A DNA stretch of 37,235 nt, taken from the NCBI GenBank assembly GCA_003056285.1, contig NDWU01000001.1:1-37235 (forward strand). The letters run 5' to 3'. Below, in pieces: positions 1-14,414 of this stretch. The notes under the pieces were generated by a model that was not told where the DNA came from, did not search any database, and was given only the letters and a program-made list of their open reading frames with translations. The position numbers and the translations under genes were made by a program. Each line of letters opens with the position of its first letter. Position 1 is the first letter of the stretch. The stretch comes from Candidatus Terraquivivens tikiterensis (GTDB lineage: Archaea; Thermoproteota; Nitrososphaeria_A; Caldarchaeales; Wolframiiraptoraceae).

Positions 1-868
1 GAAGCTCCAGAAGTTGTTTATCATGGCGTTTGCTTTATTGCTATGGTTACTTTCTCTTATTCCCTTAAGCTTTCCAAGCACTATCTCTGATACGCTAAGC
101 GCATATGCGTCTTCAATTATGGTTTTTATCATAGCGTTTATTGCATGCCTGAAGCGCCTCTGCCTAATCCTGTACAGCTTCCTAAGATTTTTTGATGTCT
201 TGGCTCTGTTTACCCTCGCAAGCCTGCTCTGCTCTTTTGCTATCCGCTTAGTCCAGTACCACCAGTCCGCCAGAACCGCTTTACCCGAGAAGGCTATGGG
301 CTGCTTCAACCCTTCAAACCACACCATTGCTAAGTTTATTACGCCTAAGTCAATATAGAGGGGCTTATCGCCTCCACGCTTGGGAGGCTTCTCGACTTCG
401 ACAGCCATAAAGCCCCTCCACACTTCATCCACATCATCATAGAATATTTCAAGCCTTCCCTGTTTTCCATACCATTTCAAGCTTCCCTTATACCTCACTC
501 TAAGCCCATTTGGGAGGTATAGATACTTTCCTTCAACTCTGTAGCAGTCGTTCCTGATAACTATTCTCAGCTCCCTTTTTCCGTTCCTCTTCCAGTATCT
601 CGGCATCGAGATTTTTGCTATGTGTTTTGGAAGTCTTCCTTTAGCCTCAAGCCTCGTTGTTCTTGTTTATTATCTGCTGGGCTGTCGCCGAACCTACTAG
701 TGGAGCATACTTCCTGTACAGGTGTTTGGGATACCATGGGAACTTCCTGTAGTGTATGTATGCATGCCTGCGTTCAAAGTTCAGCTCATTATACAACCTA
801 GCGCAGTTGTCAGCTAACACCCATAGAGCTTTGTCACCTTCAACTACGAAGACGTTCGTTCTTTCCAA
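1..868 (-). pseudogene. tnpB: IS200/IS605-type tnpB, partial and frameshifted
   Basis: TnpB-family (OrfB) RNA-guided nuclease of an IS200/IS605-type element, running off the left window edge. The first 73 codons (868 to 647, TTG start) have the usual N-terminal pattern ending in INKNNEA. Reading then continues in another frame without a stop to base 1: a segment starting RLEAKGRLPKHIAK, then a RuvC-I-like YIDLGVINLAM with its catalytic Asp. Related proteins have a short aromatic stretch between NNEA and RLEAKG; here it is missing. The junction sits on a short AGGCTTG sequence, so I infer a small deletion between direct repeats that also broke the frame. The C-terminal zinc ribbon lies outside the window. 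The gene is therefore probably dead as TnpB. Family assignment is firm; the deletion mechanism is inference. Confidence 0.88.
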
Positions 869-981
869 ACCTTAATCAGCCTCCGGATAACATCATCGTA
901 CGGCTCTCTAGGATGCACCTTCAGCCTCTTAAGCTCCTCTAAAGTATCCTTGCCTATCTTTACGGAGACCTTTTCTACCAT
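844..981 (-). CDS. Small DUF7557-like antitoxin-type protein upstream of tnpB
   Basis: A 45-residue ORF starting MVEKVSVKIGKDTLEELK and ending VWKERTSS, overlapping the tnpB start by about 25 bases in another frame. The pattern (short beta strand, then helix with LKRLKVHPREPYDDVIRRL) matches the small archaeal DUF7557-type proteins, which resemble ribbon-helix-helix antitoxins. Such proteins are often found next to archaeal tnpB or toxin genes; its job here is unknown. A TATA-like TTTAAATA lies about 25 bases upstream of the ATG, so the transcript is probably leaderless and carries tnpB as well. It may autoregulate the element. The reading frame is intact although tnpB behind it is broken. 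Confidence 0.6.
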   Translation of the reverse strand: MVEKVSVKIGKDTLEELKRLKVHPREPYDDVIRRLIKVWKERTSS

Positions 982-1004
982 CGACCACCACAGTAGCATT
1001 AGGT

Positions 1005-1017
1005 GGTATTTAAACTT
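1005..1017 (-). promoter_or_regulatory. TATA box of the tnpB element
   Basis: On the minus strand the sequence reads GTTTAAATACC. Its centre is about 28 bases upstream of the ATG at 981, the spacing expected for an archaeal leaderless promoter. It lies between the terminal palindrome and the first gene of the element. Confidence 0.5.
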
Positions 1018-1025
1018 ATCGACAA

Positions 1026-1055
1026 TTCATCCCACGGTTAAAACCGTAGGCTTTC
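1026..1055 (-). repeat. IS200/IS605 left-end palindrome
   Basis: The plus strand reads CCCACGGTTAAAACCGTAGG at 1031-1050, an imperfect hairpin. On the minus strand it is followed by ATGAAT, the common form of the subterminal left end of these elements. It marks the upstream boundary of the tnpB element and abuts the truncated nucleotidyltransferase gene at 1056. Confidence 0.65.
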
Positions 1056-1403
1056 TTGTCGAGTTTCTGTAAGGACTCTTTACTCGTCATCCTTTTCGGC
1101 TCCAGGGCCAGGGGCGAGGCTACGCCAGTAAGCGATTACGACTTATTAGCTGTAAAGCAGGAGCATATTGGAGATAGGCTTATCATAAGGTGGCCAGCAC
1201 AGATATTCGCTTATAGCATAGATGAGGTAGATAAGGAGATAGAAAACCTCAACACGATAGTATTGGACGCTCTGGTGGAAGGGGTTCTCCTATGCGGAGA
1301 TAGGCTGCTTTTCCAAAAACTACGAAACAAAGTGGATAACGTTGTGAAGAAAAGAAACCTACATAAAACAAAAATCGGATGGGTCCCAGTAAGCAACCGC
1401 TAA
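1056..1403 (+). pseudogene. MNT-type nucleotidyltransferase, 5' end cut off by IS605 insertion
   Basis: Minimal nucleotidyltransferase domain: residues about 10-30 read VILFGSRARGE followed by SDYDLL, the GSx10DxD catalytic motif. Family members act as antitoxins that AMPylate a partner HEPN protein. Normal members have 15-30 residues before the VILFGS strand; here only about ten are left, the first codon is a TTG, and the bases immediately upstream are the IS605 palindrome with an in-frame stop. So the original 5' end was probably replaced by the element. The C-terminus (KTKIGWVPVSNR) looks natural. No intact HEPN gene follows; 1404-1749 may hold decayed remains of one. It could still be translated from the TTG. 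Confidence 0.65.
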
Positions 1404-1749
1404 GGCGTTTTTGATGGAGCACAAACATATTCGCCTAGCTGTTCTACAATCTTCCCTCACAGTCTGCCAATACACTCTGACCAGAAGCATCCCAAGCAAG
1501 CGCTCTGGGTAGGACTTCAGGGATAGCGTGGTTATCCGCTATCTCTCGAGGTCTCTCATTAAAAGCAGCCAATCCATTAATACCAATTGCGCGGCATCGA
1601 ACACCAAATCCTTCGCCGAAATTATTTTAACCTTTTCCCAAAAGCTTAAGCAAAAGTTTAACGGCATATTCCAAAACCTCAACCGTGCCGGCGAAAGTAG
1701 AAGTAGCTCCCATAAAAGCTAGAGAAGAGATGATGCGGCATAGCCCACT
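1404..1749. other. No intact gene; possible decayed HEPN remnant
   Basis: No convincing ORF. On the minus strand near 1560-1630 a short stretch reads like DLVFDAAQLVLMDWLLLM, which resembles a HEPN helix, but frames are broken and I cannot assign it. Confidence 0.3.
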
Positions 1750-2094
1750 CTATAACAGTTTGATCCAATACTCTTTCGCATCTTGTATGAGGACTCCTCC
1801 CTCCGCCCTTCTGAACTCCTCTGGCGTGTATAGGAGCAACTCGACGGAGAACTCCGTTGACAGCAGGCCCCTAACCAGCACGTACCTTTCTCCTAGGCTG
1901 AGCTTCTGGAATGCGGACGATACCACTATCAAGTCTATATCGCTATCGTGTAGCCAATCGCCCCTAGCATAGCTCCCGAACAGGTACACTTCCGCATCGC
2001 CTAGCTTCTTTTTAACCCTCCTAACAAAGTCTTTGAGAGCGTCCTTAACCTCCTTCGGAGCCCTCAGCTCATCCAAGCCCTGCGACCCTGCCAA
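1750..2094 (-). CDS. MNT nucleotidyltransferase antitoxin (HEPN partner)
   Basis: A 114-residue minimal nucleotidyltransferase. The strand VYLFGSYARGDW followed by HDSDIDLIVV gives the GSx10DxD motif that binds Mg-ATP. MNT proteins of this type neutralise HEPN ribonucleases, in studied systems by AMPylating a tyrosine of the toxin (family knowledge). The start is a TTG inside the end of the upstream HEPN gene (26-base overlap), so the two are translationally coupled. Codon use and length are normal and no damage is visible. A second MNT gene, damaged, lies 350 bases away on the other strand. Confidence 0.85.
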   Translation of the reverse strand: MAGSQGLDELRAPKEVKDALKDFVRRVKKKLGDAEVYLFGSYARGDWLHDSDIDLIVVSSAFQKLSLGERYVLVRGLLSTEFSVELLLYTPEEFRRAEGGVLIQDAKEYWIKLL

Positions 2095-2470
2095 CCTCCC
2101 TCACCACGCTCTCGGCAACATCTACAAGCCTATTGGCTAAAGTTTTATCGATCGTCTCCCAAGGCCTCTCCAAGCCAGCATTAGGGTACATCGCTATGAC
2201 GTAATATGGCGAGAGCTCCGAGAGGCCAGCCTTCAGCTCGCAAGGCAATTCTAACCCCAACCCGCTAACCAACCTGGTGAGGTCGTGGGTTCTAGGAGGT
2301 CTGCTCCTCTTAAGAACGATGAAGGCAGCCTTCAACGCCTTCTCGACGGCCTGATGGGCTGCAAACAAAGCCCAGTTGGCCCTATTATTGAGTAGGGCCG
2401 ACCGTGCCTCCTCAAGGTCGACCAACGCCCCATCAAACCAGTCCTTAGCCTCCTCCCTAACCCTACTCAT
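2069..2470 (-). CDS. HEPN-domain protein (toxin of HEPN/MNT pair)
   Basis: A 133-residue all-helical HEPN protein. Residues 1-50 include WFDGALVDLEEAR and WALFAAHQAVEKALKA, the classic HEPN helix pair. RSRPPRTHDL at about 54-63 supplies an R-x(4-6)-H type motif, and SPYYVIAMYPN is typical of the archaeal branch. HEPN proteins of this group are RNases whose activity is held by the adjacent MNT protein. The ATG at 2470 has no strong Shine-Dalgarno. The order HEPN then MNT with overlapping frames is the standard arrangement. Confidence 0.85.
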   Translation of the reverse strand: MSRVREEAKDWFDGALVDLEEARSALLNNRANWALFAAHQAVEKALKAAFIVLKRSRPPRTHDLTRLVSGLGLELPCELKAGLSELSPYYVIAMYPNAGLERPWETIDKTLANRLVDVAESVVREVGRVAGLG

Positions 2471-2506
2471 CTAAAACGGCCTCGAGCTAGGATACACTCC
2501 ATGACA

Positions 2507-2745
2507 TGTGAGCTACTCCACGGCTAAAGCCGGAGCTTCCAGCGTTCGCCGGGCTTTTCGCCTCCGGTCACATCTGCTGGTTCGCGGGGCTCACACCTCC
2601 GCCATCCCATGCCTCTCGTTAAGGCATGGGCTATTCTGCCAGCCCAACCTCGGCCAATATGGCTTCATGGGTCATCGGAACATTTCTAAACGATATATTT
2701 GAATTTTGCACATTCATTCCAGAGCTAAAGCTCTAGGTTTTCTGG
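2507..2745 (-). mobile_element. IS605-derived mini-element with three palindromes
   Basis: Three hairpins lie in 240 bases: 2516-2535 (CTCC-A-CGGC TAAA GCCGGAG), 2606-2630 (CCCATGCC, nine bases, GGCATGGG; perfect) and 2719-2737 (AGAGC TAAA GCTCT). On the minus strand the last is followed by ATGAAT like the left end at 1031, and the first is followed by a GTAGCTCAC that also occurs at 10155-10163. So both ends of an IS200/IS605-like unit seem present with no transposase between them. Between them is an AT-rich promoter-like stretch (2690-2710). I read it as a non-autonomous deletion derivative; it could also encode a structured RNA. Confidence 0.5.
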
Positions 2746-3190
2746 GCATCCATTTTTATAAAGAGCGGGTTGAAACCGAAGGGCTCAACCTTCTAAGTTT
2801 TTGGATTTCTTGAATTAGTTGACTTCCTGGTTTCCGTTGGAATTTGGATCGCCTTAAATCCATGCGTCCCTGTCGGAGTTTCTCGGGGACTCCTTGCCCT
2901 GCTGCCTAGCACCCTCGGCGATGAGGCCCGGGCAAGGGGTATGAGGATGAGGCCGTGTAGCACGGCCTAACGGATGCCGTGAGGGGGCGAGGCCGCACAC
3001 GGCTGATGCGGGTCGTTTTACGATACAAAGACGACGCAGACGGCTCCTGCCCTTTCCGTCCGGATGCCTCCGTGCCGCGGACGTGCCTTTCGGCATGCCC
3101 CTGAAAGAGGGGCAGGGGGCTCCTCGCACTGCCCCCTGATGAGCCCGAAGGGCGCTCCCTTGCGCAAGGAGCACCGGCGAAGGGGGAGGA
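2746..3190. other. GC-rich hairpin-laden leader; no supported gene
   Basis: No convincing gene. An open stretch without a start codon at about 2800-2968 on the plus strand reads like a hydrophobic fragment (FLELVDFLVSVGIWIALNPC). Hairpins: 2951-2967 (GGCCGTG/CACGGCC, 3-base loop), 3097-3113 (GCCCCT/AGGGGC), 3113-3138 (CAGGGGGC/GCCCCCTG, 10-base loop) and the palindrome CCTTGCGCAAGG at 3158-3169. They lead straight into the 3200 gene. Confidence 0.4.
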
Positions 3191-3199
3191 GTGGTCTGC

Positions 3200-3466
3200 G
3201 TGAAAAGTTTTGAATACGCACTGGTGACGGCGGGCGAGGTCGGTGACGTTGGGCACGCGATAGCAAGCGCAATCAAAGATGTCGTAATGTCCGTGATAGA
3301 TTTCTTGGTACCCATAGTGAACACGGTCGCCATCTCGCTGATTCTTATAGGTCTGCTTTTGATTGCGCTGAGGCAGGAGTTCTACGGAATTAGGTTAATC
3401 CTGGGCGGCGGAGTCTCGTTGATCATCCTTCACCTCGTTTTGCCCGTCGTCCTATCTTTCCTGTGA
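3200..3466 (+). CDS. Small two-helix membrane protein, VirB2/CedA1-like
   Basis: An 88-residue protein starting at GTG 3200, chosen because GAGGAG lies 8 bases upstream; a GTG at 3191 is in frame but overlaps that site. After an N-terminal helix (SFEYALVTAGEVGDVGHAIA) come two hydrophobic segments, about residues 32-56 and 66-88, joined by a short basic turn (LRQEFYGIR). This is the size and shape of VirB2-type conjugative pilins and of CedA1/TedC, the pilin-like subunits of archaeal DNA-import systems. The similarity is architectural only; I cannot align it reliably. The HerA/VirB4-like membrane ATPase 2 kb downstream is what makes the idea attractive. It could also be an unrelated small membrane protein. 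Confidence 0.6.
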   Translation: MKSFEYALVTAGEVGDVGHAIASAIKDVVMSVIDFLVPIVNTVAISLILIGLLLIALRQEFYGIRLILGGGVSLIILHLVLPVVLSFL

Positions 3467-3867
3467 CGCTGGAGCCTTCCTGAGGGCCAACTTGCTGTCG
3501 GCTTTGCACGCTGGCAGTTGAGGCTCGAGCGCGAACACGAATCTGTGACCATAAGCAGTACGGCATCCTATCTTCCCAGCGAATTGAAAGGTTATCCAAG
3601 GATTACGACCGCCCGCTCGAGGCCGCATTCGCTGGCACGTAGAGACTGACAGCAAGGTAATCTCGAGGATGCTTACTGTTAATTTGAGACCGAATTCGTA
3701 AAGAGGAGGACGCAGCCTTTCAAAATTTACCGAGATAGGTGCCTGCTTCTGAACGTAAGCTCGGGGATTTATCCGTTGAGAAGATGTTCTTCGAGCAGGA
3801 TGTGCTGGATGACAGAAGGTTTGTCGGGAAATCATAAGACAAGCCGCAGGCTACGTTGCTAGCGGGT

Positions 3868-3898
3868 GCCGGCCGCGGCCGGCCAACCTCCCCTATTT
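3868..3898 (+). terminator. Perfect GC palindrome followed by T run
   Basis: GCCGGCCGCGGCCGGC at 3868-3883 is its own reverse complement, and CAACCTCCCCTATTTTTT follows. A GC hairpin plus U run would act as an intrinsic terminator. Related GCCAAC-TCC-T(n) strings occur at 4392-4410 and 8745-8768. Confidence 0.35.
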
Positions 3899-4020
3899 TT
3901 TGCCCATCGAAGGGCACCCCCGCACCTTTCCGGATCATGCGGGGGAAAGGGGGAGCGGCCCCGCGGCCTCAGGCCACCTGCTTGAGGTTGCTATGAGCCT
4001 TATCCAAGGTGTGAGGAAGA

Positions 4021-4113
4021 ATGGATGAATACGTTCTCCTGCTGGAGCTGGGCCTTCTACTTGGAGACGAGGAGGCCGTCGAGGAACTCAAAAAGGTGCT
4101 TTGTGTACTGTGA
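4021..4113 (+). CDS. Possible 30-residue acidic/leucine-rich peptide
   Basis: ATG at 4021 opens a frame reading MDEYVLLLELGLLLGDEE and then AVEELKKVLCVL. Its ATG overlaps the TGA of an upstream open frame (ATGGATGA), as in coupled genes. No family recognised; it may be a chance frame or gene remnant. Confidence 0.2.
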   Translation: MDEYVLLLELGLLLGDEEAVEELKKVLCVL

Positions 4114-4387
4114 GGGCAAAGCGAGAAGGCATAATTAAACGATTGGTTGTCGAAGGGTAACGCATCGAGGCCAAGGGCTTGCGGCCGACTGGCAACGCTT
4201 CCCTGCGCATCCTTAGAAGAAACTCTCCTGAAGGGCTTGTTCAGATCTTCCTGGAGGAAAGGGGCGCAAAGCCTTAGGCGAACGGATGAAAAATACGACG
4301 CAGCATAACCTGACGTGATTAGATACGACGGCACCTTACCTCATTTGCTCACGTGAAATGAGACGCTATAAACACCAAGACCAACAA

Positions 4388-4479
4388 GCCAGCCAACTTC
4401 CTCCTTTTTCTTTGAGCTTTCCCGCCTTCGCTGGCGGCGTCCGGTCCACGATCCCGGACGGAGGGGGAAGTTGGCTGGC
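4388..4479. other. Candidate three-way-junction structured element
   Basis: Outer stem: GCCAGCCAACTTC (4388-4400) pairs perfectly with GAAGTTGGCTGGC (4467-4479), 13 bp. Inside are two further perfect hairpins: CCGCC/GGCGG (4422-4437, 6-base loop) and GTCCGG/CCGGAC (4439-4459, 9-base loop). The fold is a closed three-way junction of 92 bases with no coding signal. Either strand could be transcribed. Function unknown: structured RNA, recombination site or transposon end. Confidence 0.4.
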
Positions 4480-4578
4480 AGATGCTGGATGCATGCCTTG
4501 TCCATGCATCCTGTGCAGCGTGGTTCCGGTTCCGTTCCGGCGTCGGACGGCCTTGTACGTCCTGACGATAATTATACC

Positions 4579-4695
4579 ATGCCGGTGCGGCCTTGCCCGC
4601 TCGGCATGAGCCGGACCATGCTGCACGTAGCCATCGCGTACTTCGCGGTATTCAGCGGTTTCAAATACTTTCAAAATTTCTTTGAGGCCGTATGA
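4579..4695 (+). CDS. Possible single-TM peptide
   Basis: A frame of 38 codons (or 29 from the ATG at 4606) ending in a hydrophobic/aromatic helix, HVAIAYFAVFSGFKYFQNFF. ATAATTATA at 4568-4576 could be a TATA box, which would favour the inner ATG at 4606. No family recognised. If the surrounding locus is a DNA-transfer machine this could be a minor membrane subunit, but that is speculation. Confidence 0.3.
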   Translation: MPVRPCPLGMSRTMLHVAIAYFAVFSGFKYFQNFFEAV

Positions 4696-4769
4696 GGATC
4701 TTGCTATCCCCTAAGGAGCTAGGGCCTTGCTAAGGGTCGCAACGATACATCACGGAGTTTGGTAAGGGC

Positions 4770-4918
4770 CGTCAGCCTCCGGGCGGAAAGCTCCGGTATT
4801 GCGGGCAGGATTTTCCAGTAAAGAACACAAGCAGGACCTGTCCAGGATGCGGGCGTTTGTACAATCGCAGGTCTTTAAGTGCAAGTACTGTGGTTACGAA
4901 GCCGATAGGTACTCGTAG
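4770..4918 (+). pseudogene. tnpB: tnpB zinc-ribbon fragment
   Basis: On the plus strand one frame reads VKNTSRTCPGCGRLYN and the next frame QVFKCKYCGYEADRYS then a stop. Together they rebuild the CxxC...CxxC zinc ribbon (OrfB_Zn_ribbon) of IS605-type TnpB, split by a one-base frameshift near 4868. The rest of tnpB is not recognisable upstream, and no catalytic RuvC part is seen. This shows that the GC-rich region has also been hit by IS605-type elements. Confidence 0.7.
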
Positions 4919-5159
4919 CATGCGCGAACATGCTCGGCGTGGAGGCGGGTTCGTCTCGGGTGTCCTCAATGAAATGATCGGGATGGAGGGGTCAGTAGAT
5001 GTAATGGAAGAGAAAGAACCTTGCAAACCTCTACCTAGCTCGAACCCTTACATGTCCAGGATGCTCCTAGGGACTGTCTTGTACGCCAAGATGCTTTCCG
5101 CTCCGCTGAGCGCAAGCGATTCTACGATGCCCGCGCCTCCTTCGGTCGATGCCCGAAGC
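4919..5159. other. No supported gene
   Basis: Follows the tnpB zinc-ribbon fragment and probably includes its 3' flank. I see no intact coding frame. Confidence 0.3.
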
Positions 5160-5370
5160 CCCACCGCGTAAAAGCGGTCGCCCCCAGCACGACGGGGGCG
5201 ATTCGGGGAGCCCTTCAGTGTTCCGCCCCTTGAAGCCCGAGGCATTCGGGGAAGCGTGGGCGAGGCGCACGGCTTAGAGCTGCGGGTACCTTAGTGCGGC
5301 CATGCGCATTCTGCCCATGCGACCCCTGAAGGGCTCCCCTTGAATGCTTCGGGCCTCTCCAGAAGGAGGT
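5160..5370 (+). promoter_or_regulatory. Structured leader upstream of the membrane ATPase
   Basis: Two simple hairpins, ACCGC/GCGGT (5163-5178) and TCGCCCCC/GGGGGCGA (5178-5201, 8 bp perfect), are followed by an interleaved pair of inverted repeats. GGGGAGCCCTTCAG (5205-5218) pairs with CTGAAGGGCTCCCC (5326-5339), and GAAGCCCGAGGCATTC (5232-5247) pairs with GAATGCTTCGGGCCTC (5342-5357, 14 of 16). The order A-B-A'-B' is a pseudoknot topology. It ends at the AAGGAGGT ribosome-binding site (5363-5370), so folding could control translation. It could also be a recombination or transfer-origin site. Confidence 0.4.
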
Positions 5371-5382
5371 GCGGGTCGTTGG

Positions 5383-7035
5383 TTGGAAGGAAAAGGGTCG
5401 GGCTTTGCGAATGTTGCAGAGCGCATTCCGGTGGGGTGTCGTTTGGTGTGGGCTAGGGTAATCGCCGTGCTGGCGTGCGCATTCCTGCTGGCTGGCCTAG
5501 CCGTCTACGGGTTCTTGCAGGTTCAGCAGGAGCTGTACGAGCGCGGTATGCTGGAAAGGGTGCCGGGAGGGCCTAGGTCTCCGATAAGCATCGGAGACGT
5601 GGCAGCGTACGGAGCCGCGACGTTGGCGCCCCTAGCCTCGGCGGCCCTCTTTTGGAGGGCATTCGTGGAGAGGGGAAGGCTGCTCGGCGTCGTTAGGTAC
5701 AGGGACTTCGTAAGGCACCTTCTCGTATTCGGCCCTACAGGCTCTGGAAAGACGACCGTGGCCAAGAAGGCCCTCATAATGTCGCTGAGGCACGGGTCAA
5801 GGGTCGTCGTCCTAGACTGGAAGGGGGAGTACGTCGGCTTCGTAAAAGGAGCTACGGTCATCCGCAAGATGGAAGTATTCACGCCCGCAGACTGGGAGGG
5901 CTACGAGCAGCACGCGATGGCCGTCGTGGACATCCTGTCCGACGTCCTGGACCTGACGGAGCCCCAGAGCTTCACGCTGTACAACGCCCTGGTGGAGCTG
6001 TACGAACTTAGGAAGGGACAGAGGGTCACGGCCACCGACGTCATGAACCACATAGGAGACATTCGCGACCGGGCGCTGACGCAGAGGAACGTAATGCAGG
6101 CAAACATATGCGAGGCCCTCATGCGGAGGATCCTGCCGTTGACGTTCGACGATAGGAGAAAGGCCTCGAACACGAGGGGCTCGGAAAGCGTCGTGATATA
6201 CGACCTGAGCTGCCTACCGACTTACCACCTGAAGAGCCTATACGGCCTAATAATACTTTGGAGGCTTTACAGGGAAGCCGCGAGGAACCCGGCCGCTCAA
6301 CCGTCCCTTCGGAGTTTGGTAATCGTCGAGGAATCCCAGAACTTCGTAAGGCCGAGGAGGGCTGAGAGGCCGCCTGGGATAGGGGAGCGCGTCGTAAACG
6401 AGCTTAGGAGCTACGGGTACGGCGTACTCATGATAAGCCCAGATCCTACGCAGCTTCCTTGGCACTTAGCCCGGGACGCAGGGGCTGTTATAAGCATAGG
6501 ATACCAGGGCCTTCCGGAGTTCTTATCGGACCTCCTAAGCTTTTACAGGTATGCCGACGCGAAGAAGCTGATAAGGGTAATATCGAAACTAAGAGCGTAT
6601 GTTTTCTCCAACTCGAGGCTTCACGTCAAGGAACTGCCCAAGCCCGTGAAGGGTACAGTAGACCTAGGGGTGGAGACCGTCGAGGAGGTAGTCGAGCCTG
6701 CCGTAGAGCCGCTGAGGCTTGGGGATGGGCCAAAGGCAGCTGGTGTTGAGGCTGCTCGCTGTGGAGAGAGGTGTGCCGTCGAGGAGCCCAGGCGTAGGAG
6801 CCTGGCGCTATTCGGCCATGACGTAGAGGAGGTGGAGCTCGGCGGGGACGTCAGCTACCTAAGGTGTACAGCGTGCGGCTTGACTGTGCCAATCACGGAT
6901 GCTGCTAGGCTAAAGGAAAATGCGTGCTCTGGAGAGGCAAGGACAAGGGCTCCGGCCGATGGGGCGAATGGTTACCATACTCGGCGAGAAAGCCCACGTC
7001 CTTTAGGCGTGGGATGGATCGCTTACAAATGGTGA
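5383..7035 (+). CDS. Membrane-anchored HerA/VirB4-like ATPase (CedB-like)
   Basis: A protein of 550 residues counted from TTG 5383, chosen because AAGGAGGT lies just upstream; an in-frame ATG at 5344 precedes that site. Two N-terminal membrane helices (about 24-46 and 75-95) are followed by a RecA-type motor: Walker A GPTGSGKTT (117-125), VVVLDWKGEYVG, Walker B LVIVEE (about 312-317), and a NELRSYGYGVLMISPDPTQLP segment typical of HerA/FtsK/VirB4 pumps. A C-terminal CTAC...C patch may bind zinc. N-terminal helices plus HerA core are the hallmark of CedB, the motor of crenarchaeal DNA import. The last 16 or so codons (RESPRPLGVGWIAYKW) are encoded by an IS605 terminal palindrome, so the native C-terminus has been replaced. 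Confidence 0.8.
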   Translation: MEGKGSGFANVAERIPVGCRLVWARVIAVLACAFLLAGLAVYGFLQVQQELYERGMLERVPGGPRSPISIGDVAAYGAATLAPLASAALFWRAFVERGRLLGVVRYRDFVRHLLVFGPTGSGKTTVAKKALIMSLRHGSRVVVLDWKGEYVGFVKGATVIRKMEVFTPADWEGYEQHAMAVVDILSDVLDLTEPQSFTLYNALVELYELRKGQRVTATDVMNHIGDIRDRALTQRNVMQANICEALMRRILPLTFDDRRKASNTRGSESVVIYDLSCLPTYHLKSLYGLIILWRLYREAARNPAAQPSLRSLVIVEESQNFVRPRRAERPPGIGERVVNELRSYGYGVLMISPDPTQLPWHLARDAGAVISIGYQGLPEFLSDLLSFYRYADAKKLIRVISKLRAYVFSNSRLHVKELPKPVKGTVDLGVETVEEVVEPAVEPLRLGDGPKAAGVEAARCGERCAVEEPRRRSLALFGHDVEEVELGGDVSYLRCTACGLTVPITDAARLKENACSGEARTRAPADGANGYHTRRESPRPLGVGWIAYKW

Positions 7036-7310
7036 TAAAAGTTCAAAGCGAGTCGCTTGGATGCGGCCTGATCCAAAGGCCCGAATAAGGCTCCAGGCCG
7101 AAAAGGGTGGGGGAAGGTTCGGGCAGAGGCGTCCTGAATATAGGGCTCGCTCAGGGGCTAAGCTCCCTGCGGGAGCCGTTAATGGGGTGGTGGCACACCC
7201 ATTGCAGATAGCCCTGGAGCCATGAGGGAGCGAATGCTACCGCAGATGTGCTCCAGAGCGTTGAAGGGGCTGTGTGCGAGAATCCCATGGCTAAAGCCGT
7301 GGAAGTGTCA
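6986..7310 (+). mobile_element. IS605-type element remnant without transposase
   Basis: A left-end-like palindrome (GCCCACG...CGTGGGATGGA, 6992-7016) and a second palindrome (CCCATGGCTAAAGCCGTGG, 7284-7302) flank about 270 GC-rich bases. A frame in between ends AVNGVVAHPLQIALEP at about 7224, which resembles the tail of some archaeal TnpB proteins; no catalytic part remains. I read this as an internally deleted IS605-like copy inserted in the 3' end of the ATPase gene. The tail assignment is weak. Confidence 0.45.
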
Positions 7311-7660
7311 AGTCGGCCGTCTCCGAAACGCTTTACCTCGCCCGATATGTGGCGAATAAGCCGAATGGGCGCAAAGCTTCCGATGTCTGTGCTTTACCTT
7401 TGCTCCCGAGGGTTTAACCGATAGGGATGGGATCTACGAGCCCTACAACTGCGGCGCTGTCGATCTTGTGGGATGTGATTAAATCGCATACTCACAGTTG
7501 GCGGACGGCCTGCCATGCGTCTCCCGCTACACCAAGGCCGGAGCCCGAGGGCGTCGCGGAATCGGGAGAAAGAGAAGGCGCAGGATACGACGGTTCCGGG
7601 CATGCGAGGCCGACGCGGGAACACGTACCGGAGCATAGGCCCACGGTTAATCTGCTGCTC
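7311..7660. other. No supported gene upstream of priL
   Basis: Open in the priL frame from 7427 but the predicted residues are compositionally unlike PriL and probably untranslated. Another plus frame ends at about 7490 (…DGIYEPYNCGAVDLVGCD) without a recognisable family. Confidence 0.35.
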
Positions 7661-8638
7661 ATGGCAAAGTACCCTTGGCTCGAGGAGGCAAGGATGTTCG
7701 CTGAAGGCTTTGGCCACGGGGACTTACCCGATGCTGCTTACAAGCGGGCCGTGGAGAGGGTTCGGGAAGCTATGGCTAAAGGGGAGCATGGCGTATCCTT
7801 CAAGGCAGAGGACGTCCTCGCCGAGGTCCTGAGCTTTCCGACGGCAAGGGCCCTGTGCATAGTTGTCGATGACATATGGCTGAAAAAGAGGTGGACGTCG
7901 GCCGAGGCAGCCAGGTGCGAGCGGCTGATGCATGCAGAGGAAGAGGATACGTTAAGGTTCCTGATCTCCAGGAGTCCCTTGAAGGCCTGCGCCGCCGACG
8001 TAGCCGAGCGCAGGTACGGAGAATTCAAAATGCACATCGCAGACTACCTGTCGAACGCCAAAGACCTTCTAACGGATCCGGCATGGAAGCTCGTGAACCA
8101 AGTCGTAGACGGCGGTTACGTTTACTTGGACAGGGCCAGGACCGTTAGGCTCCTCGGGCAGGCGGTATACCGCAGGCTCCTGGAAGGCCTTATGGGTGCT
8201 AGGCCAGTTGACGTGAGGCCTGAGGGATTGCCAGAATCCTTCATGAGGGCCGCCGAAAGCATCAAGAGGATCGTGGCAAAGAGGAGGCCTAAGCGTAGGC
8301 ACCCCTCGGATTCTGACGCGTGGCCGCCCTGCATGGCTGCCATACTCCAAAGGGTAAAGGATGGTAAGGACGTTGCGCACGTAGAGAAGTTCTCGCTAGC
8401 AGCATTCATGCTTGCAAGGGGCTTTACCGTCGACGAGGTCCTCGGCCTGTTCTCTGGAAGGGCAGACTTCGACGAGAGGACTGCTAGGTACCAGGTAGAG
8501 CACATAGCTGGCCTAAGGGGCTCGAGGACGAAGTACCTGCCGCCTTCGTGCGAGAAGATGAGGAGCTTAGGGATGTGCGTGGATGGCGGCGTCCGATGTG
8601 CCGGAAAAATCAGGAACCCAGTTCAATACCATGAGTAG
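7661..8638 (+). CDS. priL: DNA primase large subunit PriL
   Basis: Archaeal/eukaryotic-type primase regulatory subunit, which partners the catalytic PriS in RNA primer synthesis. The start at ATG 7661 (MAKYPWLEEAR) is chosen because PriL proteins begin with a K-Y-P-[FW] motif close to the N-terminus; this gives 325 residues, normal for the family. Residues 65-160 follow the family pattern (EAARCERLMHAEEE, then GGYVYLDRARTVRLLGQAV). The C-terminal Fe-S domain is complete: C224 (WPPC), C297 (PPSC), C306 (LGMC) and C313 (VRC), with RYQVEHIAG between. This is a core replication gene, so the chromosome backbone runs through here. PriS is not in the window. Confidence 0.93.
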   Translation: MAKYPWLEEARMFAEGFGHGDLPDAAYKRAVERVREAMAKGEHGVSFKAEDVLAEVLSFPTARALCIVVDDIWLKKRWTSAEAARCERLMHAEEEDTLRFLISRSPLKACAADVAERRYGEFKMHIADYLSNAKDLLTDPAWKLVNQVVDGGYVYLDRARTVRLLGQAVYRRLLEGLMGARPVDVRPEGLPESFMRAAESIKRIVAKRRPKRRHPSDSDAWPPCMAAILQRVKDGKDVAHVEKFSLAAFMLARGFTVDEVLGLFSGRADFDERTARYQVEHIAGLRGSRTKYLPPSCEKMRSLGMCVDGGVRCAGKIRNPVQYHE

Positions 8639-8743
8639 TCCTATAGAATGACGCTCGAAATCGTTTTGGCATGCGCTACGGTTTTATTCGATAACGTCCC
8701 GATGGGATTGAATAGAATATCCGTCTCCTAAGCCCAGCCGAAG

Positions 8744-8768
8744 CCCGGCCAACTTCCTCTTTTTTTGT
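8744..8768 (+). terminator. T-rich terminator motif after priL
   Basis: CCCGGCCAACTTCCTC is followed by seven T. Poly-T tracts act as archaeal terminators. The same GCCAAC-TCC-T(n) string is at 3880-3898 and 4392-4410. Confidence 0.4.
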
Positions 8769-9137
8769 AAAAATAAGGCTTCAGGCTTTAACCTGAAGCG
8801 TTTAAAGCCTATGGCCTACTCTGGCAAACTAGCGGTAATGCATTAGGTGGATAACAAAAAGGAAGCGAACCTAGAGAACTCTCGCTACTGTACATAATAT
8901 ACTAGTGTTGATTCCACAAAGCTCAACCTACCATCAGCTTTTCTATCACAACTATTATATTTTGCAGTACTTGGTGCAATCAAGGAAGTTTAAAAACATG
9001 CTAAGAAAAGCTCTTTCTTTATCGTACTGTAAAAGAGGCTTTCTACAATCCACATCTTATTTCTTGTGAAAAAGGTCCCATAATAAAAATGTTTATCTAT
9101 TTCTTCTATATAACAATTAACTGGGTGTAATGCTACG
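8769..9137. other. Palindrome and promoter region; no gene
   Basis: A perfect hairpin CTTCAGG/CCTGAAG (8779-8798, loop CTTTAA) resembles the IS605-type palindromes elsewhere. GC content drops sharply after 8830. AT-rich TATA-like sequence near 9100-9115 precedes the small gene at 9138. Otherwise I see nothing coding. Confidence 0.35.
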
Positions 9138-9314
9138 ATGCAGAAAACCATAGCAGATATTCTCGAGATTCTGCTGACAAAGAAGAGGGCATGGAACGTT
9201 GATACGAATTTAAAGATTGTGGTTGGCGGCACGGAAATAGGCAGTATAAGTATAACTGGAAAAATTGAATATCTTCCTCAAGAAGAGAAGGTGGAGGAAA
9301 GAGCTACAAAATAG
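9138..9314 (+). CDS. Small hypothetical protein (58 aa)
   Basis: ATG 9138 opens an intact frame: MQKTIADILEILLTKKRAW, a middle VDTNLKIVVGGTEIGSISITG, and an acidic/basic tail EEKVEERATK. It looks like a helix followed by beta strands. Codon choice is normal and an AT-rich promoter-like region precedes it. I do not recognise a family. Short frames between it and 9516 (for example EWKTLESGEVEAKARQLI near 9350-9420) look like remnants of another small protein. It may belong to a small two-gene unit with the protease-like gene at 9516. Confidence 0.5.
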   Translation: MQKTIADILEILLTKKRAWNVDTNLKIVVGGTEIGSISITGKIEYLPQEEKVEERATK

Positions 9315-9515
9315 TTCATGGAGCTTTGTGTCTTAAATCTTGAAGGAATGGAAAACATTGGAATCGGGAGAGGTAGAAGCAAAAGCCAGACAGCTTATCA
9401 AGCAGAGACATCCTTGATTAGAACTGATCTTTTCAGAACAACTTCTTGAGTTGGTTTTGATGTTGGGATATGGTTAAAATGGGAGTTAAAAATCGATATC
9501 TATAGAGGGTTTGAG

Positions 9516-9920
9516 GTGCTGGTCTTAAAAGATGTCGAGGTGACGATCGAGGGGAAAACTTCTAGGCTAAGGGCTTTATTCAATTCTGGCTCAAGCTTCA
9601 CAATCATGGGTTATGAGATACTTGGGGAACGCTTTGGAGAGGTTAAGGTTAGAAAGTTGCCCGAAACGGTCGAGGCCTTTCTTTTGAATGGACAAAAAAT
9701 GATTATCGATGGCTACGTTGATGCTGAAATCCGCATAGAAGAATACAGAATCTACGATAGAATCTATCTCTCGAAAGGCGTGGTGAAGGAGATAATCTTA
9801 AAGGGCGAGAGGAAACCAATGCCAGAGTTGATAATAGGAGCGCCAACGTTGGAAACCTGGGGGCTTGAGCTAGACCTTAAAACAGGCGAGGTAATCAGTC
9901 GAGGGACCCTTATCCTATAA
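9516..9920 (+). CDS. Retropepsin-like aspartic protease homologue, catalytic Asp replaced by Asn
   Basis: A 134-residue single-domain protein of the archaeal/bacterial clan AA retropepsin-like type. Residues 7-30 read VEVTIEGKT...ALFNSGSSFTIM, where active members have ALxDTG or DSG; here N23-S-G is present (AAT codon). The C-terminal half has the usual ELIIGAPTLETWGLELDLKTGEV, matching the family's LIG-x(n)-LE-x-LGL-x(n)-G. Active proteins dimerise so that two Asp form the site, so Asn should abolish or cripple cleavage. The start is GTG 9516. It is probably a decaying or pseudo-enzyme, unless it works with another subunit. Confidence 0.7.
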   Translation: MLVLKDVEVTIEGKTSRLRALFNSGSSFTIMGYEILGERFGEVKVRKLPETVEAFLLNGQKMIIDGYVDAEIRIEEYRIYDRIYLSKGVVKEIILKGERKPMPELIIGAPTLETWGLELDLKTGEVISRGTLIL

Positions 9921-10153
9921 AGGAGATTTCCGGAAAACCTTGAAAACAACAACCCTCTTTCAATCTTCTGGCTACTTCCAATTCCCTTAGGTAACCTTTT
10001 CTGTAGACTGATCTCTCGGCCATTTTTCAAATAAAGACCTTTTGTTTTCCCATTTTTTATAAATTTATCAAATGGGCAGAGAAACATACTGACAGCGAAA
10101 TTCCTGTCAATGATATTTTTTAACTTATCCGGAGAGTGCTTCCTCAACCTCTG
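9921..10153 (-). other. Possible gene fragment truncated by IS605 end
   Basis: On the minus strand from about 10147 an open frame starts RKHSPDKLKNIIDRNFAVSM and uses AGG/AAG-rich archaeal codons, but it has no proper start and runs into the antisense of the protease gene. It begins right at the palindrome 10155-10184, so it may be a gene whose 5' part was cut off by the insertion. No family recognised. Confidence 0.25.
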
Positions 10154-10154
10154 C

Positions 10155-10260
10155 GTGAGCTACCCACGACTATAAGCCAGTGGCTTCCTGCTTCAACGAT
10201 GAAGCTTGCGGGAACCTAGATTGGTTCCCGTAGAGGCTCCACCTCGGCAGCAGGCGGATC
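10155..10260 (-). repeat. IS605 right-end-like tandem hairpins
   Basis: Three tandem hairpins: CCAC...GTGG (10163-10184, next to GTGAGCTAC), GCTTCA/TGAAGC (10190-10205, 4-base loop) and CGGGAACC/GGTTCCCG (10209-10230, perfect, 6-base loop). GTGAGCTAC and the GGCTTCC after the first stem are shared with the mini-element at 2508-2540. Tandem hairpins at the right end are where TnpB guide (omega) RNAs arise. No tnpB remains here, so this is a solo end. Confidence 0.5.
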
Positions 10261-10465
10261 AGGGCTGCCCCATCCCCTCATCTTTATTCTACATGCTGAG
10301 ACCCAATCCCTATAAGGATTCTTGTATCCTATGCTTTCAGAAGTGCCCCTTGGGGGAACCTTCACCACCTAAACACCGGCTCTTTCAGCCTTGTATCCGA
10401 GTAGATAAAGGTAATTATCATTCACTCATTAGTTTTAAAATTGTGGTTGCTTTATTGTTTTACCA

Positions 10466-11750
10466 TTAATAAGATGGAAGAGGTATGAGTCTTACGACGT
10501 AAGAACCGTCCCTTGCAACGTTTATGTTTGCATACGAGACCGCGTTGTACTCTTTACCTGCTATGACCAGTTTTCCGAAAACAAATACGGAGTATTCGCC
10601 GCTTAGCAGATTAGCCTGTAGTATTAACTCTTTCGCCGGCCCTTTGCCGTAAAGTGTCACGAAGTATAGCCCCTCTATATTCCTATTTAGAAGGTCCTCA
10701 AAGCTTATTTTAGATGGAAGAATTATGAGAGCTACTCCAAACCGCTTGTCGACTGCAGCTCCATTGATAAGATCTATAAGCTCGTAATAGGATCTATCGT
10801 TTCTGCATAACCTATCTTTATTTTCCGAGAGTTTTTTAATTGCTCTTGAATTGTTACCTTCCCATACATCTTGCCTTACTTGAAATAAGGTACGATAAGT
10901 TCGTAAGGCGGAAATATACTTGGCATAACTTTGCTCAGATACGTTTTTCTCTTCCAGTATCTCAAACAGTCTATCCTCATTAATTCGCCAAGGAATCTTT
11001 CTATCCAAAACTTCACGCAAAACATTTGCAACACTTGCCATTCGAAAAGAGAACCATAAATCAAGCTTTTTTGCATATGTGGAATCTAATTTTATCACAT
11101 AAGTTCTTGTCATAGGCGCAACAGCAGCATCTGATGAAATACCTACAGCGGTTAAATGCTTCTTTGTCTCAACTGTTCTCTCAGAGCCTGGAATAGTCAA
11201 TCCTAAAACGATGGTATTATAAGAATTTATTAGGTTAAGCACTAAATATTTATAGTAAACAGCATATCTATAACATCCAGCCTCTTCTCCAAGGCTTACT
11301 ATTTTATGGGCTTCGTCGAAAACAATTATGCTAAATTGTTCAAGGTTTATTCTGCGTAAAATAAAGTCATTATTTAGAACTCCAGCTGTCATTATTAGTA
11401 TGCTACCTTTAAAAGTAGAAAGAGCATGTTCTCTTTCTTTAGGTGGTATATAACCTGTTATATACATAACTTCTGATGTTGCATCACTAAGCCATTTTTC
11501 AATTTCCTTTTTCCATGGATTATAAACAAGAACTCTTCTAGGAACCACTATTAAGACTCTACACTTGCCTCTTATATTCCATAATACCCTTTATAAATTC
11601 TAAAGCTATTCTTGTTTTACCGATGCCTGTAGGGCCTTCAATTAATAAACGTCTCTCTCCTTTATTAAAAAATTTATAGAAAAGTTGTTTTAATATGTCA
11701 TTTTGTTCAGGTCGAAGGTCATCTGATTCAAATAAACTGCTGAAGTCCAT
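10466..11750 (-). pseudogene. DEAH-type SF2 helicase/ATPase, frameshifted
   Basis: Begins with ATG 11750. Residues 37-46 read IEGPTGIGKT (Walker A, motif I). The frame stops at 11559, and reading continues in the next frame as RGKCRVLIVVPRRVLVYNPW (motif Ia-like), then IIVFDEAHKIV (motif II) and LGLTIPGSE where motif III (usually TAT) should be. A one-base shift near 11562-11575 explains the break; total length is 1285 bases. No second RecA domain with motif VI is visible; the C-terminal 250 residues are helical and unrecognised. So this was either a one-domain nucleic-acid ATPase or a divergent helicase, likely accessory. A TATA-like TTTTAAATAAG (minus, 11800-11812) precedes the gene. Confidence 0.65.
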
Positions 11751-11759
11751 TACAGGTAT

Positions 11760-12109
11760 TTATGTTAATTAGCATACTTATCATTTTGGTTACCTTCTTA
11801 TTTAAAAGTACTTTTGCCAGAAAGCTAGAGCTGGAGTAAAGAATCAGGTTCGACAAAGCTTAAGTTGGTATTCTCCTACATCTGAGAAAGCTAAACTCAT
11901 CAACCCAGAGGCCAAGCTAAAGCTCTTCAAGAAAATAACAATCGTCTCTGATTTTAACATCATTTATGGTGGCTAGTATTACGGTTACTGTTGTTCTACA
12001 ATTAACAATCCTATTTTAACAATAGAAGCACATTGTGAAATTCCCTCTTGAGAAGCTTCCTAAGCCGAAAGGTGCGCGAACGATGAAAGTAAAAAGTGTT
12101 AAACATTTA
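11760..12109. other. No supported gene
   Basis: Contains the helicase promoter. A plus-strand stretch at about 11870-11976 (SPTSEKAKLINPEAKLKLFKK) looks coding but has no clear start or family. Confidence 0.3.
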
Positions 12110-12269
12110 TGAAACGTTATGAAGGTGATGAAAATATCCTCGTCTTCTTTCTCCGTCAATGCGGTAGATCTCCTTAAGTTTACCTTTTATTCTATACTAT
12201 AGACGTCCATGCCGATTTTGTAGTTTGAGGGGTTAACTAATCTGGCAGTACCAGCTCACGTTTTTCCAT
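12110..12269 (-). pseudogene. Small frameshifted protein, third gene of a decayed operon
   Basis: ATG 12269 has an excellent ribosome-binding site (GGAGGTGA, 12276-12283). The frame reads MEKRELVLPD and stops; other frames continue LVNPSNYKIGMDVYSIE and KLKEIYRIDGE, then EDEDIFITFITFH. At least two frameshifts are needed. It is directly downstream of the small gene ending at 12283. No family recognised. Confidence 0.45.
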
Positions 12270-12282
12270 CAGTTGTCACCTC

Positions 12283-12438
12283 CTATTTTATGTGCCTTTC
12301 CATACGACTGCGATACCACCAAAATACGATGCTGACAAGATCGCCATTTTTATCGCGAATAAAAGTATAACCTTGAGCATGTTTGCTTATACCATGTTCT
12401 TCGTCGAACTTCCATCTCGGTATGTCAATTATTTCCAC
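12283..12438 (-). CDS. Small intact protein in a decayed operon (51 aa)
   Basis: GTG 12438 lies inside the last codons of the upstream pseudogene (its TAA is at 12429-12431), so the pair was translationally coupled. The sequence runs VEIIDIPRWKFDEEHGISKH, AQGYTFIRDKNGDLVSIVFW, then WYRSRMERHIK. The aromatic, beta-rich composition with a basic tail suggests a small fold such as a toxin or accessory subunit. I do not recognise it. The next gene's Shine-Dalgarno overlaps its stop. It is the only one of the three operon genes without visible damage. Confidence 0.5.
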   Translation of the reverse strand: MEIIDIPRWKFDEEHGISKHAQGYTFIRDKNGDLVSIVFWWYRSRMERHIK

Positions 12439-13060
12439 ATCCCAAAGCCAAAATTGATAAAAGGTCCGACTTCTGCAGGCTTGGGAGCCTCTTCTTCTTG
12501 GTATAATGGTGTAAAACGATGTAAGGTTTCTCCAGTTTGAGGGTTAACATACGTTTCTATTGGAAGGTAGCGTATAGGTATGCTTATGTAATCTTGAACC
12601 TTTGTCAAAATTTCATTAAAGCCATCGATCAGAAAGAATAATCACTGTGGGAATATCCCCATCCATCGCAGAATCTATCAATTGGTATAGGTACCTGAAC
12701 TTCTTAGATTCTGTTAATCTGTTTGCTATTTTTCTCAAGAATTTGCATCAACCCTGATGATCTCCTTAAAGAATACATTGAGCTTGGATTTGCTTTCTTT
12801 GTATGAGATTGCGAACTTAAGTACTTGAGTAGCGATGTGCTCTAGTCCATGGCTTCTCAACTCAACCTCTAAAACATATAAAATAGGATTGTCGGGATCG
12901 GATAAATCTAGGAGAAAACCATCGGAAATTGAACCGAGTTCTGCTTTTCTAGACGTTAACTTTGACTTTGGAAATACAAAGCTATGTTCTCCGAATAAAT
13001 CCGGTGCAATCTCCATTACAACCTTCTCTAATTCTGATTCTTCCTTGTAGAGACTGAGAA
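12429..13060 (-). pseudogene. PD-(D/E)XK-like nuclease protein, multiply frameshifted
   Basis: The intact part (13016 to 12735) reads LTSRKAELGSISDGFLLDL, then LYVLEVELRSHGLEHIATQVLKF, a D...ExE pattern like restriction-type nuclease cores found in many archaeal hypothetical proteins. It continues after a frameshift as KIANRLTESKKFRYLYQLI, and after another as IDGFNEILTKVQDYISIPIRYLPIE, ending at 12429 with FGFGMWK. The 5' end (YKEESELEKVV upstream of 13016) lacks a start codon. So the gene has at least two indels and probably a lost start. It heads a coupled three-gene operon (with 12283-12438 and 12110-12269). Confidence 0.6.
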
Positions 13061-13235: not shown

Positions 13236-14414
13236 ATGATTAAACAAATTCAGATTAAAAACTTCAGATCGATCAAAAATGTCCAAATTGAAATAAAACC
13301 TCTTACTCTTCTATATGGTCATAATGCATCTGGAAAATCTTCTATTCTATATGCTCCGTTTATCCTAAGGAATATTATTCTTAACCCTAATCAGACAGTG
13401 GATGGTTTTCCAAACCTAATTTTCTGTAATTTTGGCGGTTTTGATCAAGTAGTGTATAACCATGATCCAAAACTAGAAATAGAGATAGGTGTTACATCTG
13501 ATACCGAATTCGGTGAATTATCGTATACTGTCGCATTTAGCAAAGATAGCGGGAGTTTTAGATTAAAATTGGAGGACAAAATTGACGAAACCTTACACGT
13601 AAAGTTTCCATATCCAGTTAACTCCCAGAAAAAGATACAAGTTAAAACTGAAGAAGAAACTGTAGAATTTATTTGGAACGGAATTACCGCTAATCCTACA
13701 ATTCAACCATTGACACAATTTGGAGAAAAATTACTTAAAAACTTGAATTCTGTTATTGAATTAATTAAAAATATAGATATAGTTCCCTTAAAACGCGGTT
13801 TCTCAAAGCCGGTCTATTCTCCTATTTCAGTAGGTCAAATTGCTATTAATGAAGATGAAGTAGCTACTTTACTCACGAGAGGTTTTGGGTACCTCAAGAA
13901 CAAAGTTCATATTTACGTTAGGAAAATTTTCAATAAAGACTTTCAACTCACTTCCACCCCAGGAACATCTATCTTTTATCTACAAACTGTTGACGAAAAA
14001 GGTCTCACGTCAGAGCTCGTAAACGATGGGTTTGGTGTAAATCAGACTATTTATTTGTTGACTAAGGTATTGCGCCCAGAAGCTTCTGTACTTTTAATTG
14101 AAGAGCCAGAAATTCATCTCCATCCTGTAGCACAAAGTAAACTAGTAGAGGCCCTTGTAGAGATTGTTGAAAATGAAGATAAAACACTCATAATCTCCAC
14201 ACATAGTGAACATATAATCTCCTCTCTTCTTTCTCTTGTGGTTGAGAACAAAATATCACATGATCAAATAGCATGTTATTTGTGCAAAAAGGAGAAGGGA
14301 GTAACTGTTGTTCAAGAACAGAAGGTTAACTCCAAAGGACAAATTGAGGGTGGTTTAACTTCCTTTATGGAGGCTGAAATTGAAGTACTGAAGAAGATGA
14401 TTGGACAAAAATGA
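13236..14414 (+). CDS. OLD/RecF-like AAA ATPase of an ATPase-PIN pair
   Basis: A 392-residue SMC-like ABC ATPase (AAA_15/AAA_21 group). It opens with MIKQIQIKNFRSIKNVQIEI, the typical N-terminal strand, Walker A GHNASGKSS (28-36), a signature-like ELVNDGFGVNQ (260-270), Walker B VLLIEEPEIHLHP (285-297), and the H-loop STHSEH (321-326). The start ATG has an AAGGAG site 8-13 bases upstream. The stop overlaps the next ATG by four bases (ATGA), so the two products are made together. ATPases of this class paired with a nuclease (for example OLD/Gabija, Septu, PARIS, RloAB) are antiviral. Here the partner is a PIN-like protein, which I do not know as a described pairing. AT content is high compared with the core genes. 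Confidence 0.85.
   Translation: MIKQIQIKNFRSIKNVQIEIKPLTLLYGHNASGKSSILYAPFILRNIILNPNQTVDGFPNLIFCNFGGFDQVVYNHDPKLEIEIGVTSDTEFGELSYTVAFSKDSGSFRLKLEDKIDETLHVKFPYPVNSQKKIQVKTEEETVEFIWNGITANPTIQPLTQFGEKLLKNLNSVIELIKNIDIVPLKRGFSKPVYSPISVGQIAINEDEVATLLTRGFGYLKNKVHIYVRKIFNKDFQLTSTPGTSIFYLQTVDEKGLTSELVNDGFGVNQTIYLLTKVLRPEASVLLIEEPEIHLHPVAQSKLVEALVEIVENEDKTLIISTHSEHIISSLLSLVVENKISHDQIACYLCKKEKGVTVVQEQKVNSKGQIEGGLTSFMEAEIEVLKKMIGQK

Follow-up and report, generated by a model that had tools for sequence, protein, structure and literature searches.

A putative DNA-transfer cassette with a CedD-like ATPase and an extra primase large subunit in Caldarchaeales

Ced and Ted systems are known from Sulfolobales, Desulfurococcales and Thermoproteales. 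At the start of contig 1 of a genome from a hot-spring member of the Wolframiiraptoraceae (order Caldarchaeales, 'Aigarchaeota'; 1.54 Mb, 39 contigs, 96.9% complete), a membrane ATPase gene, a small membrane-protein gene and a primase large-subunit gene lie close together, raising the question of whether they are the remains of a DNA-import locus and, if so, of which kind. The window, i.e. the whole stretch of DNA analysed, covers the first 37,235 nucleotides of this contig; an Rfam scan of it gave 0 matches. The features at and near the locus are as follows.

1-645, minus strand: TnpB gene cut by the contig start (from a weak match, E 0.053, and visual inspection)
2551-2634, minus strand: C-terminal TnpB remnant immediately beyond the cassette (75% over 28 aa)
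3191-3466, plus strand: small two-helix membrane protein, a partner gene conserved in the cassette (91 aa; 88 aa from GTG 3200)
3467-5343, no strand: decayed non-coding spacer of about 1.9 kb, with no convincing cassette or T4SS remnant
4788-4910, inside this spacer: weak zinc-ribbon trace, possibly TnpB debris
5344-7035, plus strand: CedD-like ATPase of 563 aa; two helices at the N-terminus, zinc ribbon at the C-terminus
5731-5754, plus strand: Walker A motif of the ATPase, GPTGSGKT, residues 130-137 (from the alignment)
6781-7005, plus strand: zinc-ribbon tail of the ATPase (tblastn with the zinc protein of genome G028, E 1.5e-8; blastp of tails)
7427-8638, plus strand: additional primase large subunit (PriL2) that lacks the N-terminal extension; its homology spans roughly 7616-8629

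The ATPase was matched in Pfam to DUF87/HerA (E 2.3e-11), to TrwB (1.7e-5) and also to VirD4-type domains. Among NCBIfam families CedD ranked first (E 7.7e-35, 120.5 bits), followed by CedB (3.9e-7, 29.1 bits), both scores lying below the equivalog cut-offs of 600 bits for CedD and 700 bits for CedB (NF041017). The match to the CedD profile covers positions 215-463 of 527, and the N-terminal domain of CedD is absent. CedD was also the top NCBIfam family for the cassette ATPases of the related genomes G028 and G024. The frame has 563 codons, compared with a longest frame of 406 in 300 Markov resamples of 2900-8640, and relatives align along it at 34-50% identity.

In a tree with a HerA outgroup, five cassette ATPases grouped in a single clade (100/100), which fell together with CedD (95/94); this second tree omits own_D4, two other HerA paralogues of the same genome, CedB_L190 and six near-duplicate CedD-type rows. 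In the first tree, from which the true HerA rows had been dropped by a motif filter, the cassette stood beside, not inside, CedD with weak support (80/66). Both trees omit three rows (failed or duplicate extraction). The grouping obtained was thus with CedD and not with nuclear HerA, although in AU tests constraining the cassette ATPases with CedB (p 0.21) or with HerA (p 0.097) neither placement was rejected. The original prediction had described a two-TM HerA/VirB4-like ATPase of CedB architecture; the Ced/VirB4/HerA kind and the two-helix anchor were borne out, but in sequence the ATPase resembles CedD and not CedB.

The AF2 model of the ATPase is of modest quality (mean pLDDT 62.3); it shows long helices at residues 30-70 and 83-110, then the P-loop domain and, at the C-terminus, a small beta region. 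At the threshold of the hydropathy scan only the first helix was called as transmembrane, and two transmembrane helices were called in four relatives. Foldseek matched the model to HerA (4d2i, E 3.0e-10), VirB4 (4ag5, 2.4e-9) and TrwB (1e9r, 3.1e-7). Its tail resembles zinc-finger proteins encoded by separate genes in G028, L058, G012 and G025; the fusion of the zinc ribbon to the ATPase in the window and in G024 ties the two genes to each other. A role as a known defence gene was considered and rejected, PADLOC giving matches to generic HerA/Mad8 at E 3.2e-11 or weaker.

The small protein had been likened to VirB2 and CedA1 in shape. It is real and conserved, with 32-43% identity to four relatives; homologues occur in 5 of 60 related genomes (one copy with a stop), i.e. 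in 6 of 61 with its own genome included, as well as in L058, and the gene is linked to the ATPase in all five loci where both were found. The AF2 model of the 91-residue protein is a two-helix hairpin (pLDDT 80.8). Aligned using hhalign with 12 CedA1 references, which were genes taken from beside CedA genes, it showed no similarity (Prob 0.09, E 0.49). The sole match in a PDB sequence-profile search was an unrelated designed protein (E 0.1), the best Foldseek match had E 4.7, and with VIA-align the matches were confined to long helical hairpins (Z at most 7.8). Its identification as CedA1 found no support in the hhalign, PDB sequence-profile and Foldseek results, so that 'CedA1-shaped' is a fair description and 'CedA1 homologue' is unsupported: the likeness is in shape only. 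Since CedA1 and TedC have no sequence similarity to each other according to the accessible text of PMC9905601, the protein might still serve as a pilin.

The neighbouring priL was found as predicted (PF04104, E 3.4e-27; invariant C302, C375, C384 and C391), but it is not the housekeeping gene. A second, better-scoring PriL in the same genome (contig 32, C32:24930-25475) is the housekeeping copy and groups with Ca. Terraquivivens in the PriL tree (100/100), which makes the organism a Terraquivivens-like representative of its family; the gene in the window is a second, divergent copy. The tree separates cassette from housekeeping PriLs at 96/98, on a branch holding 34 housekeeping rows and the ambiguous G025, while the complete ten-row cassette group reaches only 76/51; 35 of 80 loci were used beside the cassette rows, L067 was left out and G024_707 forms a very long branch. 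The relatives of PriL2 have an N-terminal extension of 140-180 aa that the window copy lacks. A match of the G027 PriL extension at 5884-6006 (E 0.004) falls within the ATPase gene and was regarded as fortuitous. In a 2018 survey PriL was found nearly exclusively with chromosomal primases, as far as the accessible part of PMC5862659 reports, which makes a cassette-borne PriL unusual. No PriS gene was recognized on reading the cassettes.

The genes of the window belong to a recurring cassette encoding a small membrane protein, a CedD-like ATPase, a zinc-finger protein, an XPD/DinG-type helicase and an extra PriL, found in related Caldarchaeales and in one other MAG (S6B1_HD70, locus L058). The gene set recurs in G024, G027, G028 and L058 and is partial in G012, G017 and G025. 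In order of transcription the cassettes read as follows.

G024: small protein, ATPase, helicase, PriL2
G027: small protein, ATPase, zinc protein, helicase, PriL2
G028: ATPase, zinc protein, helicase, PriL2, small protein
L058: ATPase, zinc protein, 304-aa protein, helicase, PriL2, small protein
G017: PriL2, small protein, then contig end
G012 and G025: zinc protein, helicase, PriL2

Here, G027 appears to be Ca. Caldarchaeum subterraneum H1_Bin, G028 Ca. Calditenuis fumarioli, G017 Ca. Wolframiiraptor gerlachensis and G012 Ca. Geocrenenecus huangii. Of the 61 genomes examined, 11 had any match to the ATPase and 4 of these a cassette-type one (38-42% identity, or the genome's own); for the helicase, 14 had any match and 5 of these a close one (at least 47% identity). 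Neither the ATPase nor the small protein was found in the five genomes of the same genus. The helicase has DEAD_2 and Helicase_C_2 domains and resembles CRISPR type IV DinG (E 2.6e-59). Several copies are broken: the ATPase of G027 and the helicase of G024 are each in two frames, and the helicases of G012 and G025 contain a stop. The PriL2 of L058 is 69% identical to that of Wolframiiraptor. The housekeeping PriL of the same MAG (L058, L124) groups with Thermoproteota despite this Wolframiiraptor-like cassette PriL, a conflict due to either horizontal transfer or a misbinned contig.

Other genes were noted around these cassettes. In G024, which is a single contig and 99% complete, a 707-aa protein beside the cassette (L042:1739-3862, minus strand) has a region resembling the PriL2 core and no Pfam match; by eye, several hydrophobic stretches precede this region and the end is HEPN-like. 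A few kilobases upstream of the same cassette, Rad50, Mre11, HerA and NurA genes were seen by eye in a row (L042:13488-18983, minus strand). Three genomes share a conserved protein of roughly 285 aa that is encoded close to the cassette PriL2 (L241:973-1821, L044:4938-5801 and L053:2792-3652); two members were scanned, with no Pfam match.

Compared with this set, the window copy has lost the helicase (none in the genome at E 1e-15) and the PriL2 extension, contains a non-coding gap of 1.9 kb and has TnpB remnants nearby. The proposal that the region between the small protein and the ATPase is decayed stands: tblastn of the spacer with cassette and T4SS proteins gave nothing convincing, the best match (E 1.1e-4) being short and of low complexity with composition correction off. 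GC content is 0.58 in 2900-8640. To the left of the cassette, a toxin-antitoxin-type MNT-HEPN pair was observed at 1753-2470 (minus strand; nucleotidyltransferase PF01909, E 8.8e-16; HEPN PF05168, E 1.4e-24). Further along, an apparently broken DEAD-type helicase in two frames (360 and 63 aa) occupies low-GC DNA at 10466-11750 (minus strand), and a 392-aa AAA_15/AbiEii-like ATPase (PF13175, E 1.4e-29) lies in DNA of GC 0.32-0.35 at 13236-14414 (plus strand).

A CedA-like pore is indeed missing from the window, as had been stated, but a search for cedA elsewhere in the genome located one on contig 2. There, a T4SS-like operon (831-12907, all genes on one strand) encodes a 136-aa pilin candidate, a 286-aa CedA-like protein, a 1174-aa multi-TM protein, small membrane proteins, a 937-aa VirB4-like ATPase, a 705-aa VirD4/TrwB-like ATPase and a 454-aa membrane protein. 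The 286-aa protein aligned with CedA references at Prob 98.3 and E 1.4e-13 (hhalign) and matched the NCBIfam families CedE (4.3e-5) and CedA (4e-4). The 136-aa protein reached E 1.9e-5 against CedA1 but only Prob 53.6, and the 937-aa protein matched CedB (E 2.2e-23) and AAA_10 (2.7e-11). On this sequence evidence, systems of the CedA/VirB4 type are suggested to extend to Caldarchaeales. The GC content of the operon is 0.59, compared with 0.45-0.49 around both it and the cassette; the equally high values fit a shared origin and are no proof of it.

The contig-2 VirB4 has a single relative among the 60 other genomes, in G027 (57% identity), giving 2 of 61. The T4SS operon of G027 is encoded on the strand opposite the cassette, 1.2 kb away from the cassette's small-protein ORF; in L058 pilin-like and CedA-like genes lie on the opposite strand 2.2 kb from the ATPase. 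The T4SS flank in G027 (L240:5905-11255, minus strand) carries a Hel308-type helicase, two RecA-like ATPases and an MCM-like AAA protein. In the window's genome the cassette is on contig 1 and the operon on contig 2. A divergent layout like that of G027, with the starts of the two contigs adjoining, was considered and is unsupported, though the two may still adjoin; the contig ends hold two different TnpB-like reading frames over the same TnpB region and have no 21-mer in common.

We read the locus, as an evenly balanced judgement, as the eroded form of a cassette for DNA transfer and strand processing, which is sporadic in Caldarchaeales and would work with a Ced/Ted-like apparatus. In the intact form, the membrane-anchored and probably hexameric CedD-like ATPase would pump DNA through the membrane, with the small two-helix protein and a DNA-binding zinc-finger protein as its helpers. 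Opening or stripping of the incoming DNA would fall to the XPD/DinG-type helicase, and the second strand would be initiated by the extra PriL acting with the host PriS. Pore and pilus would be supplied by the T4SS-like operon with its CedA-like, CedA1-like, VirB4-like and VirD4-like products. The direction of transfer would be import, because S. islandicus requires CedD to take up DNA (PMC11868833, accessible text). The ATPase and PriL core frames are still open in the window's genome; with the helicase gone, the cassette as a whole is unlikely to work there. G024 and G028 carry the cassette with no match to VirB4 or CedA, so that the T4SS partnership is not proven, and the system may be either a domesticated exchange system or an integrative-conjugative element.

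The latter possibility, in which cassette and T4SS genes together are a decaying element whose transfer and replication genes would serve the element and not host repair, is judged less probable than the reading above. It accords with the sporadic distribution, including the absence from the same-genus genomes, with the GC contrast, with the stops in the G012 and G025 copies and with the PriL conflict of the L058 MAG; a DNA methylase gene also adjoins the L058 cassette, and thaumarchaeal integrative-conjugative elements encode VirB4, VirD4 and VirB6 (PMC6563490, accessible text). In the loci read, however, no integrase, att site or tRNA border was seen, and the repair-type genes in the T4SS flank of G027 suit a repair island equally well. 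Plasmid scans with the ATPase and VirB4, a phage scan with PriL2 and viral-contig scans with four queries likewise gave no match; single-protein viral-contig scans reach only close relatives, and the ATPase scans are weak, having failed a positive control when a genome-contig scan of the same kind was also blank although a genome among those contigs, L055, encodes the ATPase.

The VirB4- and CedA-free carriers, together with the likeness of the helicase to type IV DinG, lend some weight to a rather unlikely alternative in which the cassette is independent of a T4SS and forms a membrane-tethered HerA-type translocase with a helicase and a primase subunit for repair, segregation or defence; the tight linkage to T4SS genes in G027 and L058 and the position of CedD as the nearest known relative of the ATPase speak against it. 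From the same complete cassettes in G024 and G028 one could derive a separate minimal import machine, in which the small protein would be the conduit and a dedicated helicase and PriL would begin to copy the incoming strand at the membrane. This seems improbable, and no archaeal import coupled to priming was found in the literature searched. Least probable is a partly dismantled or minimal CedB/CedA1 machine, the interpretation first given to the locus: a membrane ATPase, a small two-helix protein and a decayed spacer are present, but the bit scores favour CedD over CedB, CedA1 similarity is lacking and the genome's own CedA-like and CedA1-like genes are located elsewhere. The observation behind the original prediction is thus confirmed and the locus is partly dismantled; its interpretation is supported in part and needs changing, the CedB/CedA1 identity being unsupported.

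In our preferred reading of an eroded transfer and strand-processing cassette, for which no earlier description was found in the literature searched, the association of a CedD-like translocase with an Fe-S-type helicase and a free PriL suggests how transfer may be linked to second-strand synthesis. It bears on the open question of how the imported strand is processed in Ced and Ted.

Among known systems, the closest component is CedD (SiRe_1715) of the Ced system of Sulfolobales, described in Saccharolobus islandicus as needed for import (PMC11868833, accessible text). The window ATPase likewise has a HerA/VirB4-type domain behind membrane helices, has CedD as its best family match and lies on the same supported side of the tree; it differs in having no VirB4-like N-terminal domain, in its added zinc-ribbon tail and in scoring far below the CedD cut-off. 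In Ca. Calditenuis fumarioli a VirB4 ATPase is listed as a unique gene cluster, with neither cassette nor function given in the accessible part of PMC10547907; it is probably the cassette ATPase of G028. The thaumarchaeal integrative-conjugative elements are alike in bringing together VirB4, VirD4 and VirB6 with DNA-metabolism genes, whereas in the accessible texts (PMC6563490, PMC5797428) theirs is a primase-helicase fusion, compared with the free PriL and the lack of any integrase or borders seen here. In the Ted system of Thermoproteales a single region holds VirB4, a small pilin and a CedA-like channel, and recombination or helicase genes are found close by; the contig-2 operon, with its candidate pilin, and G027 resemble this arrangement as described. 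The accessible text of PMC9905601 describes no Ted locus in which an XPD/DinG helicase is joined by an additional PriL. In Thermofilales, CedD occurs with VirB4 and without CedB, according to the accessible text of PMC11868833, and the window's genome similarly combines CedD-like and VirB4-like ATPases.
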